IMG/VR virus record: IMGVR_UViG_3300002223_000040
Coordinates: 1-20,652 of that record
Direction: 5' to 3' (one strand)
Source of the DNA: a virus
Length of the DNA: 20,652 nucleotides
The notes under the pieces are model-generated. The model saw nothing but the letters and a program-made list of their open reading frames with translations. It was not told the origin of the DNA and did not search any database. Made by a program: the position numbers and the translations under genes. Within the stretch, counting starts at the first letter, position 1; each line of letters begins with the position of its first letter. This document shows, piece by piece, positions 5,701-20,652 of this stretch.

Positions 5701-6114
5701 TTAACTTTGAAGAACAAACTTGTGGAAGTGTCCGGAAACCAATTTGTCGGTTGCATTCACAATTGAATCAATGCGAAACACCAAGTCAGTCGTTGCTGTT
5801 AAATCAAGCGATGCTGCACCCGCTAAATCGTAAGAATTTCCAACATGTGTTGCTTGAACTGGAGTCGTACCAGTCAATGCTTCAAGTTGAACTCTATCGT
5901 CAATTTTCAAAACTGAAATTTTAGACGAGCCATCACCAGTACCGCTTGTTTTCGTTTCTAAAGCGACATACTCGACCACATTGTCGCCCGCTGATGCTGC
6001 CACCAAGTACCCACTCGACATCTTGCACAAATTGTGCTTTGTCAGTGTGGTACTGGCAGTCATCGGCAAATCCATTACATGCCCTTCGTCGTATTGACGT
6101 GGAATAAATGCCAT
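5701..6114 (-). CDS. Head decoration / capsid stabilisation-like protein
   Basis: A 137-residue beta-rich protein lying between the scaffold-like gene (6 bases upstream) and the capsid gene (10 bases downstream). This is the classic place for a capsid cement protein, as lambda gpD lies between scaffold and capsid. It has little helix and many short beta segments: an N-terminal arm with MAFIPRQYDEGHVMDLPMTA, then SSGYLVAASAGDNVVEYVALET near residues 33-54, a central VLKIDDRVQLEALTG and a C-terminal FRIDSIVNATDKLVSGHFHKF. Decoration proteins usually form trimers that lock the expanded shell. Identification rests on order, size and beta character rather than a diagnostic motif. The start is at ATG 6112-6114. 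Confidence 0.7.
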   Translation of the reverse strand: MAFIPRQYDEGHVMDLPMTASTTLTKHNLCKMSSGYLVAASAGDNVVEYVALETKTSGTGDGSSKISVLKIDDRVQLEALTGTTPVQATHVGNSYDLAGAASLDLTATTDLVFRIDSIVNATDKLVSGHFHKFVLQS

Positions 6115-16195: not shown

Positions 16196-16420
16196 ATGTT
16201 ATTCAAACTATTTGGGTTAATAATTTTGATAAAAAAGAAAAGTTACGTGCCAAAAACTGGTGCAAAAAGAGCAAAACGCCTTTACGGAAAACGAAGACGA
16301 GATGGCTTATGTAAACGTTGTGCTGTCGTTGTGACAGAAACAAACAAAGTCACAAAAAAACTCTATTCTTCTTGTAAGGAATGCAAGAAAAGAGAAAGAA
16401 TTGTCCACAGCATAAAATGA
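16196..16420 (+). CDS. Small basic zinc-ribbon protein
   Basis: A 74-residue protein starting at ATG 16196 with a hydrophobic start (MLFKLFGLIILI) and a basic body. The C-terminal half has CKRC and CKEC, about 20 residues apart, typical of a zinc ribbon, with many Lys/Arg. It may bind nucleic acid. The hydrophobic start could be a short membrane or signal segment, or non-coding if translation begins later. Its stop lies directly before a promoter and the structured RNA at 16477. Confidence 0.6.
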   Translation: MLFKLFGLIILIKKKSYVPKTGAKRAKRLYGKRRRDGLCKRCAVVVTETNKVTKKLYSSCKECKKRERIVHSIK

Positions 16421-16431
16421 TTGTTGTGTGG

Positions 16432-16437
16432 TATAAT
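16432..16437 (+). promoter_or_regulatory. Extended -10 promoter ahead of the structured RNA
   Basis: TGG followed by TATAAT (16432-16437) forms an extended -10 element; no good -35 lies 16-18 bases upstream. Start near 16444. It would drive the RNA at 16477 and then the replication genes. Confidence 0.6.
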
Positions 16438-16454
16438 ATAATTTCACAATTTAT

Positions 16455-16559
16455 ATGTCCAAAATCTTACCTATACAAAATCTATCAAGGACTCGCAACG
16501 ACACCGTAAAATCGGTGGCTCCCCGTAAGAGGAGTGGACACGTTGAGAGTCCCCGATAG
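16455..16559 (+). CDS. 34-codon leader ORF overlapping the structured RNA
   Basis: ATG at 16455 in a TTATATG context like other starts here, stop TAG at 16557-16559, just before the U-tract. The product is 34 residues and rich in Arg, Ser and Pro (ending in SGHVESPR). Ribosomes on this frame would unfold the stems at 16477-16564, so it could be an attenuation leader peptide. It may also be accidental, because structure constrains the same bases. Confidence 0.3.
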   Translation: MSKILPIQNLSRTRNDTVKSVAPRKRSGHVESPR

Positions 16560-16567
16560 ATTTTTTT
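16477..16567 (+). ncRNA. Three-way-junction RNA ending in a U-tract before the replisome organizer
   Basis: Nested helices are visible: P1 AAAATCTATC (16477-16486) with GATAGATTTT (16555-16564), P2 GGACTC (16489-16494) with GAGTCC (16547-16552), P3 CAACG (16496-16500) with CGTTG (16541-16545). Inside P3 there are two hairpins: CACCG-TAAAAT-CGGTG (16502-16517) and GCTCC-CCGTAAGA-GGAGT (16518-16535, outer pair G:U). Seven U follow (16561-16567), then GT and the ATG at 16570. An upstream promoter and terminal U-tract allow either a free small RNA of about 120 nt or a conditional terminator in the leader. I do not recognise the fold as a known riboswitch class. Confidence 0.72.
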
Positions 16568-16569
16568 GT

Positions 16570-17370
16570 ATGGCAAAAGCACGATATATTCAAACAAAAT
16601 TTTGGAGTGACGCTTTTATACAAACCTTAGAAAAAGAGGAAAAGTTGTTTTTTCTTTATCTTTTAACGAATGAACACACAAACATTCTTGGTATTTATGA
16701 AATAACTATAGCAACAATGGTGTTTGAATCCGGCCTTAAAGAAGATGAAATCCGAAAGGCTATAGATAGCCTATCAAAGGCTAAAAAACTCTCATATTTT
16801 GAAAATCATATTATTTTGGTGAACTTTTTGAAAAATCAATCTTTGAACCCAAAAGTAAAAAAAGGGATTGAGCGTTTTTGGGCTGACCTTAGCAAAGAAG
16901 TAAAAGAATATATTTGTACAACAGATAGCCTATACATAGCCTATCATAGGCTATCACACTTAAACTTAAACTTAAACTTAAATAATATAGCGGCTAACGC
17001 CGCACAGAAAAAATCTATGTTTGAAGAACCAACAATTGAAGTTGATAAAAACGGCGAAGAAATCGAGCAAACAGATTCAGAGGTAAAACTTCCAAGAGGA
17101 TTCATCACAGGCATTGCTCGGTACTACATGGCTCAATTCAAAGTACCGGAAACCAAAGGCGCGTTCTACGCCTACCAAAGAGCCGTTAAAGACATGATCG
17201 AACTGGCGCGAAAAATCCACACTGATCCAGTAAAAATTGACGAAGAGATACGGGCAAGGATTAACATAGCTAAAAAGTTTTCTGATAAACAGGGTTGGAA
17301 AAAAATGAAACTTCTAACAATCTGCGAAAACTGGAATCTTATCTATTCTGATTGGCGAAAACAGTTGTAG
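16570..17370 (+). CDS. Replisome organizer / DnaD-like replication initiation protein
   Basis: From ATG 16570 the protein has 266 residues; an in-frame GTG at 16534 lies inside the RNA structure and is unlikely. The N-terminal domain (KFWSDAFIQTLEKEEKLFFL, then LLTNEHTNILGIYEITIATM and KIDSLSKAKKLSYF-like text) matches the winged-helix N-domain of phage replisome organizers, including the NFLKNQSLNPKVKKGIERFW stretch. A linker (about residues 135-180) is encoded by short repeats giving LNLNLNLN. A helical C-domain may load the helicase. It binds the origin and recruits the DnaB-type helicase encoded next. Origin-like repeats lie within the gene. Confidence 0.82.
   Translation: MAKARYIQTKFWSDAFIQTLEKEEKLFFLYLLTNEHTNILGIYEITIATMVFESGLKEDEIRKAIDSLSKAKKLSYFENHIILVNFLKNQSLNPKVKKGIERFWADLSKEVKEYICTTDSLYIAYHRLSHLNLNLNLNNIAANAAQKKSMFEEPTIEVDKNGEEIEQTDSEVKLPRGFITGIARYYMAQFKVPETKGAFYAYQRAVKDMIELARKIHTDPVKIDEEIRARINIAKKFSDKQGWKKMKLLTICENWNLIYSDWRKQL
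16758..16982. repeat. Iteron-like TAGCCTAT repeats and CTTAAA tandem array (candidate origin)
   Basis: GATAGCCTAT-type sites occur at 16765-16775, 16924-16934 and 16935-16945, with an inverted copy at 16945-16955. The last two form the perfect palindrome ATAGCCTAT-C-ATAGGCTAT. GGCTATAGATAGCC (16758-16771) is a further palindrome overlapping the first site. Four perfect copies of CTTAAA (16959-16982) follow, then AATAATATA: an AT-rich, easily melted array. Iterons next to an AT-rich array inside the initiator gene is the layout of lambda O and many phage origins. Confidence 0.6.
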
Positions 17371-17469: not shown

Positions 17470-18732
17470 ATGAACCTCCTACTAGCCTACATCATCAACA
17501 ACCCGAAAGAAACAATCAACCCCAACGTCTTATCCGAACAAGATCGTATTGTTTACACAACACTACGAAAACGCTTTGCTGAAAACAAGCCAATTAACTT
17601 TGACCGACTTGCCGAAGGCACTTTTTACTCACCAATAAATATCGAAATAGCTGCGACAACAAACCTTCTCACTAAAGCGGAATTTCAAGAATACAAAGAA
17701 GAGGCGGAAGACAAATACCGATTGGCGCAATTTGATAAATTGTTTTCACGGTATTTTGCTCTTTTTTCAGAAGCAGAACCAAAAAATAAGCTCGGCGTTC
17801 TCATCGAACTCAAAGAGCAACTATTACATTCCGATACATCACAAAAGAAATACGAAGTACACCACGCAAACACCATGTTTCACTCATGGCTCGAAGCGTA
17901 TGACAAGCCTGTTGAATATGTTGCAAAGACAGGATTTCCTGCGTTAGATCGCGTGCTTGGCGGTTTTCGCGGGTCCGAATTAGCTGTCATTGTCGCAGAC
18001 ACCAATGTGGGAAAAACCAACTTACTTATCAACATGGCGGTGTCCATGACAAAAGCTGGAAAGTCAATCCTATTTTTCTCGCTTGAAATGGGAGTGAACG
18101 AACTGATAGACAGGCTTGTTCCAATTTATGGAAATTTTAGTGTTCAAGAAATCACGGAAAGAGCAGTTCAAAAAGATTTTTTGGGAAAAACTGTTACTGA
18201 ACTTTCCGCGCTCAATCTCACAATCATTTCCTCCGGTTCGATCACGTCCGAAGACGTGTTAAGCGAAGCAATAAACTACAATCCGGACATCATCATGGTG
18301 GATTATTTACAACTTCTTGCCGACCCAAAAGGAAAAGAAAACGAAACAGAACGTCTCCGCCAAATGGTTCTCAAACTGAAACGTGGTGCTCTTAATCTCA
18401 ATAAACCAATCATTACACCTGCACAAGTTGACAAAGCCTCGTCAAAATCCGGCTCAATCAAAATCGAAAACATAGCAAGCTCGAAAGAAATAGCAAACTC
18501 CGCAGATATTGGGCTGTATCTGTACGAAAAAGAAATAAACGGAAAAGACCAAAGTGTTTTGAACGCAATAAAATATGAAACACGGTTACGTCTTGTTAAG
18601 TCTCGCCACTCCCAAAAAGGTTTTGATATAAAAATAAACTTCGATCATCGCACCATGCAAATGACCGAAGACAACAAAGAATCCCAAACCGCCATTGAAA
18701 CAAAAAACTTGATCGATTTAATTAAATTTTAA
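17470..18732 (+). CDS. Replicative DNA helicase, DnaB/gp4-like (RecA fold)
   Basis: A 420-residue protein. After a helical N-terminal domain (about 1-150), the RecA-type motor contains Walker A ADTNVGKT (176-183), in which the usual first Gly and the TG are replaced (G..G.GKT consensus) but Lys-Thr are kept; SLEMG (204-208) with the catalytic Glu; Walker B IIMVDYLQLL (274-283); a TPAQVDK motif with Gln 319 at the H4 position; and a C-terminal KSRHSQKG, the likely Arg finger. It is shorter than E. coli DnaB (471), as in many phage forms. As a ring hexamer it unwinds the fork, loaded by the upstream replisome organizer. The next gene begins within a few dozen bases. Confidence 0.93.
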   Translation: MNLLLAYIINNPKETINPNVLSEQDRIVYTTLRKRFAENKPINFDRLAEGTFYSPINIEIAATTNLLTKAEFQEYKEEAEDKYRLAQFDKLFSRYFALFSEAEPKNKLGVLIELKEQLLHSDTSQKKYEVHHANTMFHSWLEAYDKPVEYVAKTGFPALDRVLGGFRGSELAVIVADTNVGKTNLLINMAVSMTKAGKSILFFSLEMGVNELIDRLVPIYGNFSVQEITERAVQKDFLGKTVTELSALNLTIISSGSITSEDVLSEAINYNPDIIMVDYLQLLADPKGKENETERLRQMVLKLKRGALNLNKPIITPAQVDKASSKSGSIKIENIASSKEIANSADIGLYLYEKEINGKDQSVLNAIKYETRLRLVKSRHSQKGFDIKINFDHRTMQMTEDNKESQTAIETKNLIDLIKF

Positions 18733-19083: not shown

Positions 19084-19239
19084 ATGGATAAAAAATGGAT
19101 CAGCGTGCGCCAGTATGCTAAACAAGTGGGAAAATCAAGACAACAAATTTACATGGATATACGAACCGGAAAACTCCCAAAAGAAAAATGGAGAAGAAAA
19201 GAGTTAAGTTTTAAACGACTACAAATACTTGATTCTTAA
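19084..19239 (+). CDS. Excisionase/AlpA-type HTH DNA-binding protein
   Basis: A 51-residue protein from ATG 19084 to stop TAA 19237-19239. WISVRQYAKQVGKSRQQIYM followed by DIRTGKLP is the winged HTH of MerR/AlpA/excisionase family proteins: a 'SV.QYAK..G.S...IY..I..GKLP' recognition unit. The C-terminal residues are Lys/Arg-rich. These proteins act as excisionases (when next to an integrase) or as transcription regulators. No integrase is visible here, so a regulator role is more likely. It is the first gene after a promoter with consensus -35. Confidence 0.75.
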   Translation: MDKKWISVRQYAKQVGKSRQQIYMDIRTGKLPKEKWRRKELSFKRLQILDS

Positions 19240-20532: not shown

Positions 20533-20652
20533 ATGTCGGACAACAATACTAACTGCCGTGCCTGCCGTGCCTGCTATGCCTGCTATGCCTGCTATGCCTG
20601 CCGTGCCTGCTATGCCTGCTATGCCTGCTATGCCTGCCGTGCCTGCTATGCC
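20533..20652 (+). CDS. Cys-X-Ala tripeptide-repeat protein, partial (C-terminus beyond the right edge)
   Basis: ATG 20533 in an AAAATATATG context; residues MSDNNTN are followed by at least 11 tripeptides Cys-X-Ala, with X Arg or Tyr in the order R R Y Y Y R Y Y Y R Y. From the second unit on, the order repeats every four units (12 residues, 36 bases). Every Cys is TGC, every Ala GCC, Arg CGT and Tyr TAT, with no silent variation, so the array is young or homogenised. A Cys at every third position would suit a metal-rich or disulfide-linked fibre, but I know no matching family with certainty. The frame is open at the window end, and the composition is far more GC-rich than its surroundings. 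Confidence 0.65.
   Translation, partial: MSDNNTNCRACRACYACYACYACRACYACYACYACRACYA
20554..20652 (+). repeat. 9-bp tandem repeat array with 36-bp higher-order period
   Basis: Eleven units of TGC(CGT or TAT)GCC in perfect register, reaching the end of the window. CGT units recur every fourth unit after the first. Read on the minus strand it codes Gly-X-Ala (X Ile or Thr), a collagen-like pattern, but the plus-strand frame has a native-looking start. Confidence 0.9.

Follow-up and report, generated by a model that had tools for sequence, protein, structure and literature searches.

The locus examined here raises the question of whether a branched hairpin that ends at the start codon of a phage replication gene controls the expression of that gene and, if so, which pairing sets the control. 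The stretch analysed as a whole (the window) is a virus record of 20,652 nt. A sequence-only reading had described a promoter-driven three-way-junction RNA with a U-tract touching the replisome organizer start codon, and had proposed an attenuator or riboswitch that gates the replication genes. We favour, with a probability of about 0.7, a transcription attenuator of the replication operon that would be set by pairing of the leader 5′ end with the terminator loop. The features flanking and overlapping the hairpin are as follows:

16429-16437, plus strand: extended −10 promoter element, TGGTATAAT, identified in the sequence
16455-16559, plus strand: candidate leader ORF of 34 codons, MSKILPIQNLSRTRNDTVKSVAPRKRSGHVESPR, from ORF inspection
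16570-17370, plus strand: DnaD-like helicase loader (replisome organizer), 266 aa, by PHROG match
17470-18732, plus strand: DnaB-like replicative helicase, the next gene of the operon (Pfam DnaB_C, 6.1e-32; PHROG 19, 2e-55)

The extended −10 element was indeed found just upstream of the structure. The matches of the 16570 gene to PHROG 1701 (E = 2.2e-18) and PHROG 6251 (E = 4.5e-16), as DnaD-like helicase loader and replisome organizer, agree with the replisome organizer named in the sequence-only reading. Just upstream of the element, 16196-16420 encodes a Cys-rich, zinc-ribbon-like protein of 74 aa that matches no family. Within the loader gene, partly palindromic repeats (GATAGCCTAT and ATAGCCTATC, at 16754-16790 and 16924-16960) look like origin iterons, and tandem 9-bp repeats (CTGCYRTGC) occupy 20544-20652, up to the right end of the record. 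The window genes are devoid of Shine-Dalgarno sites, as in Bacteroidota; the promoter, however, is of the TATAAT type. Prophage matches were found in MAGs of several phyla, and Bacteroidota are thus only a possible host group. The sole other record found that covers the element, L002, is 100% identical over 12 kb and, within the helicase gene (window 18634; L002 12065), the two part abruptly at a mosaic junction; the helicase has 420 aa in the window, whereas that of L002 has 540 aa and a C-terminal extension.

We observed that plus-strand bases 16472-16572 fold into a three-way-junction hairpin with a minimum free energy of −44.3 kcal/mol, compared with −23.0 ± 3.6 kcal/mol for dinucleotide shuffles (z = −5.94, 0/200), in agreement with the earlier judgement that a chance origin of so many nested stems is unlikely. 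This fold ranks among the strongest within the 20,652-nt record; another very strong one, of about −46 kcal/mol, lies at 5971-6082 inside the minus-strand gene 5701-6114. The hairpin is made up of the following parts:

16477-16564, plus strand: terminator hairpin, the P1/P2/P3 stem around hairpins 1 and 2 (−40.5 kcal/mol)
16477-16486 and 16555-16564, plus strand: P1, 10 bp, from the fold
16489-16494 and 16547-16552, plus strand: P2, 6 bp, from the fold
16496-16500 and 16541-16545, plus strand: P3, 5 bp, from the fold
16502-16517, plus strand: hairpin 1, CACCG-UAAAAU-CGGUG, 5 bp with a 6-nt loop, from the fold
16518-16535, plus strand: hairpin 2, GCUCC-CCGUAAGA-GGAGU, 5 bp with an 8-nt loop complementary to US2 (see below), from the fold
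16536-16540, plus strand: linker GGACA joining hairpin 2 to P3, the complement of US1 (see below), from the fold and nascent-chain folding
16561-16567, plus strand: U7 tract of the predicted intrinsic terminator, from the sequence

The three stems, the two hairpins, U7 and the GT-ATG that follows are all present as first described. The nesting had been called perfect; the stems do nest, but two internal mismatches interrupt them, one 2x2 (AA/CC) and one 1x1 (G/A). With a stable G+C-rich stem at 16477-16564 and a U tract directly after it, the element has the anatomy of an intrinsic terminator, although its long branched interior kept it from being listed by a simple terminator scanner, which accepts only loops of 3-8 nt. 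The minus strand of the element folds at least as well as the plus strand, and therefore energy alone does not give the strand; judging from the T-tract, the promoter, the gene orientation and the G-U pairs present in the stems of relatives, the RNA strand is the plus strand. These G-U pairs indicate a plus-strand RNA and not DNA. A feature of the DNA itself, such as an origin hairpin, a protein-binding dyad or a small inverted-repeat element, might be suspected next to a loader gene that carries the repeated GATAGCCTAT motifs, the possible iterons; we consider it very unlikely, since besides the G-U pairs the polarity of promoter, hairpin and T-tract is always toward the gene and no second copy of the element occurs within the record.

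Only the two nucleotides GT separate U7 from the loader ATG at 16570. This space is too small for a promoter, and therefore transcription from this leader could reach the loader only by readthrough. Attenuation as such is strongly supported by this anatomy.

The start of the leader, TGTCC-AAAA-TCTTAC at 16456-16470, right after the promoter, complements two segments of the hairpin interior:

16456-16460, plus strand: US1, TGTCC, complement of the junction linker 16536-16540, from the sequence and leader shuffling
16465-16470, plus strand: US2, TCTTAC, complement of the hairpin-2 loop GTAAGA at 16525-16530, from the sequence; the equivalent helix covaries in nine relatives

A collinear two-part match of this kind arose in about 2 of 100,000 shuffled leaders (p = 2e-5), whereas the best single exact match in the window alone, of 6 nt, is not significant (p = 0.18). 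The pairing amounts to 6 + 5 bp in the window and is longer in many relatives (8-12). When the folding of the nascent chain was followed, the US1-linker pairing was the minimum free energy structure for chains ending at 16540-16544 and was displaced once the 3′ strands of P3 and P2 emerged. A scan of the window for the best duplex partner of the loop and linker did not single out US1 and US2, because the spacer splits them. This complementarity between leader and loop is the key part that the earlier description lacked.

L002 being identical, the window sequence itself gives no covariation. A covariance model of the window element (R1) recovered only identical copies among 88 loci, and a blastn search against phages returned nothing; a DNA pattern of the core gave one match, which was judged to be due to chance. 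The covariation described here comes from relatives in architecture, and the membership of the window in this class rests on its layout and on its own two-part match. One subfamily (L017, L026 and L031) has a common US1, TTTCGCA, and a common linker, TTGCGAA. A pattern scan defined on US1 and linker only, leaving US2 and the loop outside the pattern, brought in further members, for a total of nine distinct sequences. US2 and the loop differ between these members and yet remain complementary (ACATTTG/CAAATGT, ATCAATC/GATTGAT, ACAATA/TATTGT, TCACTA/TAGTGA, TAACTA/TAGTTA, ATCAGTA/TACTGAT and GAATCA/TGATTC). Across the nine sequences the US2-loop helix is 92% paired, with double-sided changes at 7/7 pairs (0/500 shuffles); its score is 1.10 versus 0.26 when shuffled, and the signal is gone when the helix is slid by one column. 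The whole pseudoknotted structure is 97.5% paired, with changes on both sides at 18 pairs. Because the alignment (A5) was put together by hand from excised segments, we ran a control in which the extraction rule was fixed and the loops were permuted (p = 5e-5). The compensatory changes in homologues on which the sequence-only reading had made its RNA depend are present, but in the US2-loop helix, which it had not described.

The same arrangement recurs before the loader genes of other phages. Loader genes were gathered by protein similarity from IMG/VR (79 loci, then 35) and from genomes (5 loci), and about 20 loci have a strong hairpin directly before the loader, most of them with a T-tract; at some other loci the hairpin lies about 250 nt before it. 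The hairpin sequences are unrelated among loci, yet the bases just upstream complement the loop. Thus GACAAT-AAA-GAATCAC in L014 pairs with GTGATTC in the loop and ATTGTC in the linker, TGCCTA-AAA-TACAGATA in L057 with TATCTGTA in the loop and TAGGCA in the linker, and TGCGC-AAGC-CCGTGAG in L109 with CTCACGG and GCGCA. The window layout (US1-linker, A-rich spacer, US2-loop) is common to these three loci and the TTTCGCA family. In a kissing type, the 5′ complement is itself a hairpin loop, as in Tenacibaculum phage JQ (L005) and L019; in phage JQ, an isolate, the element lies at L005 4100-4232 (AGCATCCTAC and GTAGGATGCT), before a 78-aa ORF and the loader gene. TTTCGCA-family elements also stand directly before other types of gene (MSGWIKIHRQL..., MNFLEKDLEEIIF...; L137 1348-1455, L140 5030-5138, L133 10967-11076 and L138 4643-4755), and this element appears to be mobile as a module.

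Phage genes are often separated by terminators, of which these loci have many, and the hairpin might be just a strong terminator of the upstream gene whose complementarity is due to chance. Terminators were found mechanically and matches of at least 8 nt between leader and hairpin were counted, with leaders and hairpins swapped between loci as the control. Such a match was present in 7/12 terminators ending <45 nt before the loader versus 5/132 swapped pairs (p = 2e-6), and in 18/49 terminators within 1 kb upstream of the loader versus 126/2352 (p = 8e-11). The other terminators of the same loci showed no excess (15/172 versus 6.5%, p = 0.16), which makes the complementarity a property of these leaders and not of terminators generally. 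At L064, L083, L104 and many loader loci no such pairing of leader and loop was found. Since the complementarity is enriched at loader terminators only and covaries, and U7 and the loader ATG leave no room for a promoter between them, an ordinary terminator with chance complementarity appears highly improbable.

Promoter motifs occur close to the 5′ complement. Among the phage JQ-like loaders (group A), 17/24 carry TAnnTTTG, the −7 element of Bacteroidota, at 15-40 nt before it; in loaders of the window's kind (group B), TATAAT lies within 55 nt upstream of it in 8/14, against a background of about 3% for each group (3.1% for TATAAT). The order of elements is therefore promoter, 5′ complement, terminator and gene. 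The recurrence of this order before other loaders, together with the lack of room for a promoter between U7 and ATG, upholds the earlier proposal of an attenuator that gates replication genes.

The riboswitch that had been offered beside the attenuator fared differently. A junction this compact, possibly with a pseudoknot and with a terminator following at once, would suit a ligand-binding RNA. However, no conserved nucleotides were found across the class (window, L014, L057 and L109), in which only the pairing is common, no Rfam family matches at the gathering score in the window or in 20 related loci, and the class precedes replication genes, not metabolic ones. With complementarity conserved rather than nucleotides, a riboswitch can be practically discarded.

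According to the attenuator reading, polymerase would start ~12 nt before the leader ATG and make first the short 5′ segment US1-AAAA-US2 and then the branched hairpin, whose closing stem and U7 would form an intrinsic terminator that reaches to the loader start codon. Since US1 and US2 are antisense to the linker and the hairpin-2 loop, the nascent 5′ end could pair with the loop before the 3′ arm is made. This pairing would either compete with the terminator or dock on it, and would set the frequency of readthrough into the loader and helicase genes. Its most likely sign is that it keeps the lower stem open, allowing readthrough, and that termination follows when US1 and US2 are occupied; the occupants could be leaders terminated earlier and acting in trans, or ribosomes at the leader ATG that overlaps US1, or kinetics alone might decide. 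We infer that termination occurs, and likewise the sign of the pairing, the trigger and any action in trans. Regarding direction, US2 ends 6 nt before the 10-bp P1 in the window, too short a gap to span the full stem to the junction, and thus full docking would require the base of P1 to open, favouring readthrough. This is a geometric argument, which we infer for the window and which is not valid for all relatives; in those of the kissing type, the leader-loop helix could coexist with the terminator stem, and its role need not be that of an antiterminator.

The leader ORF offers another way of controlling the same terminator, in which its translation would open the hairpin and couple to translation of the loader. 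The ORF that had been seen threaded through the structure does exist; its start codon overlaps US1, and it stops in the P1 3′ strand, 10 nt short of the loader ATG. Leader ORFs start near US1 and US2 and end close to or overlap the next start in the window, L014, L057, L081, L085, L089, L127, L026, L031 and L053, and, where the element abuts its gene, about half of the cases have an ORF ending at the next start codon. On the other hand, similar ORFs occur in only part of the class: L079, L082, L123, L124, L017 and L065 have no ATG or an early stop. These hairpins average >1 open frame by chance, which renders the evidence from leader ORFs weak, and no Shine-Dalgarno site precedes the window leader ATG. 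We therefore regard control by ribosomes as rather doubtful.

Attenuators that act through RNA pairing are known in plasmids and phages. The rep attenuators of pT181 and pIP501 have an intrinsic terminator just upstream of the replication-initiator gene that is switched by RNA pairing; there, regulation is by a countertranscript of the opposite strand, and it is the terminator 5′ arm that the antiterminator pairs with, whereas in the window the leader supplies the complement with its own 5′ end, and the pairing partner is the loop. In phage P4 termination is Rho-dependent, and the targets of the C4 RNA of P1 and P7 lie in C4's own transcript. In action, the closest analogues of the window element appear to be P4 CI/seqA and P1/P7 C4, and also IsrK of Gifsy-1. 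Satellite phage P4 carries CI RNA and the complementary seqA and seqC in one leader, with premature termination before the replication genes, and CI is made by processing of the untranslated primary transcript (PMC4825925). The window likewise contains an RNA and its complementary target within the leader of a replication operon, but here the hairpin itself would be an intrinsic terminator abutting the gene. C4 is a three-stem RNA with two antisense segments (a′ and b′) to the target RNA and variable specificity loops, which is processed by RNase P and occludes ribosome-binding sites (PMC5320573). The window element also has three stems and two antisense segments to its own transcript; in contrast, one of these segments is a junction linker, the RNA ends in a predicted terminator and it has no Rfam match. 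We tried the Rfam C4 family (RF01695, c4-a1b1 motif) as an identity for it and ruled this out, with 0 matches in the window and the 20 related loci and, within 16300-16700, none at E ≤ 5. IsrK is the terminated short leader RNA made together with a readthrough mRNA from one promoter, and the short form acts in trans on the long one (PMC4825925); terminated and readthrough forms are what we propose here, with the difference that IsrK controls an antiterminator gene and the window element precedes a helicase loader.

These likenesses bring up the possibility of a self-antisense RNA for immunity or copy control. The terminated leader, of ~125 nt, would build up as phage copies increase, and through its loop and linker, which are free, it would pair in trans with newly made US1 and US2, forcing termination, like P4 CI with seqA and seqC. 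US1, US2 and the loop are hypervariable while complementarity is kept, as expected of specificity determinants, and P4 CI and P1/P7 C4 share a leader with their targets and control replication or immunity genes (PMC4825925, PMC5320573). Pairing in cis, however, would compete with pairing in trans, and a temperate lifestyle is hinted at only by a weak match to a Cox-like excisionase or repressor (E = 2e-4) in the small protein at 19084-19239. We hold this role to be possible, at less than even odds.

No description of this class of attenuator was found in the literature searched, which left out most subscription papers. The attenuator in front of the loader is probably a switch of phage replication, made of RNA and not described before, whose design recurs, with different letters, before replication genes in many unrelated phages. 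More tentatively, the class might be a widespread family in which the 5′ leader is antisense to its own terminator loop, with fast-diverging specificities, and in which the terminated leader is an RNA-only factor of immunity or copy control that acts in trans in phages infecting Bacteroidota and other hosts and that evolved independently of P4 CI and P1 C4. RNA control of the onset of phage replication is known from few systems (P4, P1/P7), and a compact self-complementary attenuator before the loader operons of diverse uncultured phages and of the isolate Tenacibaculum phage JQ, whose element is a tractable test case, would add a layer of replication control that is general and easy to test. 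The paired specificities of such attenuators could be put to use as orthogonal RNA switches.
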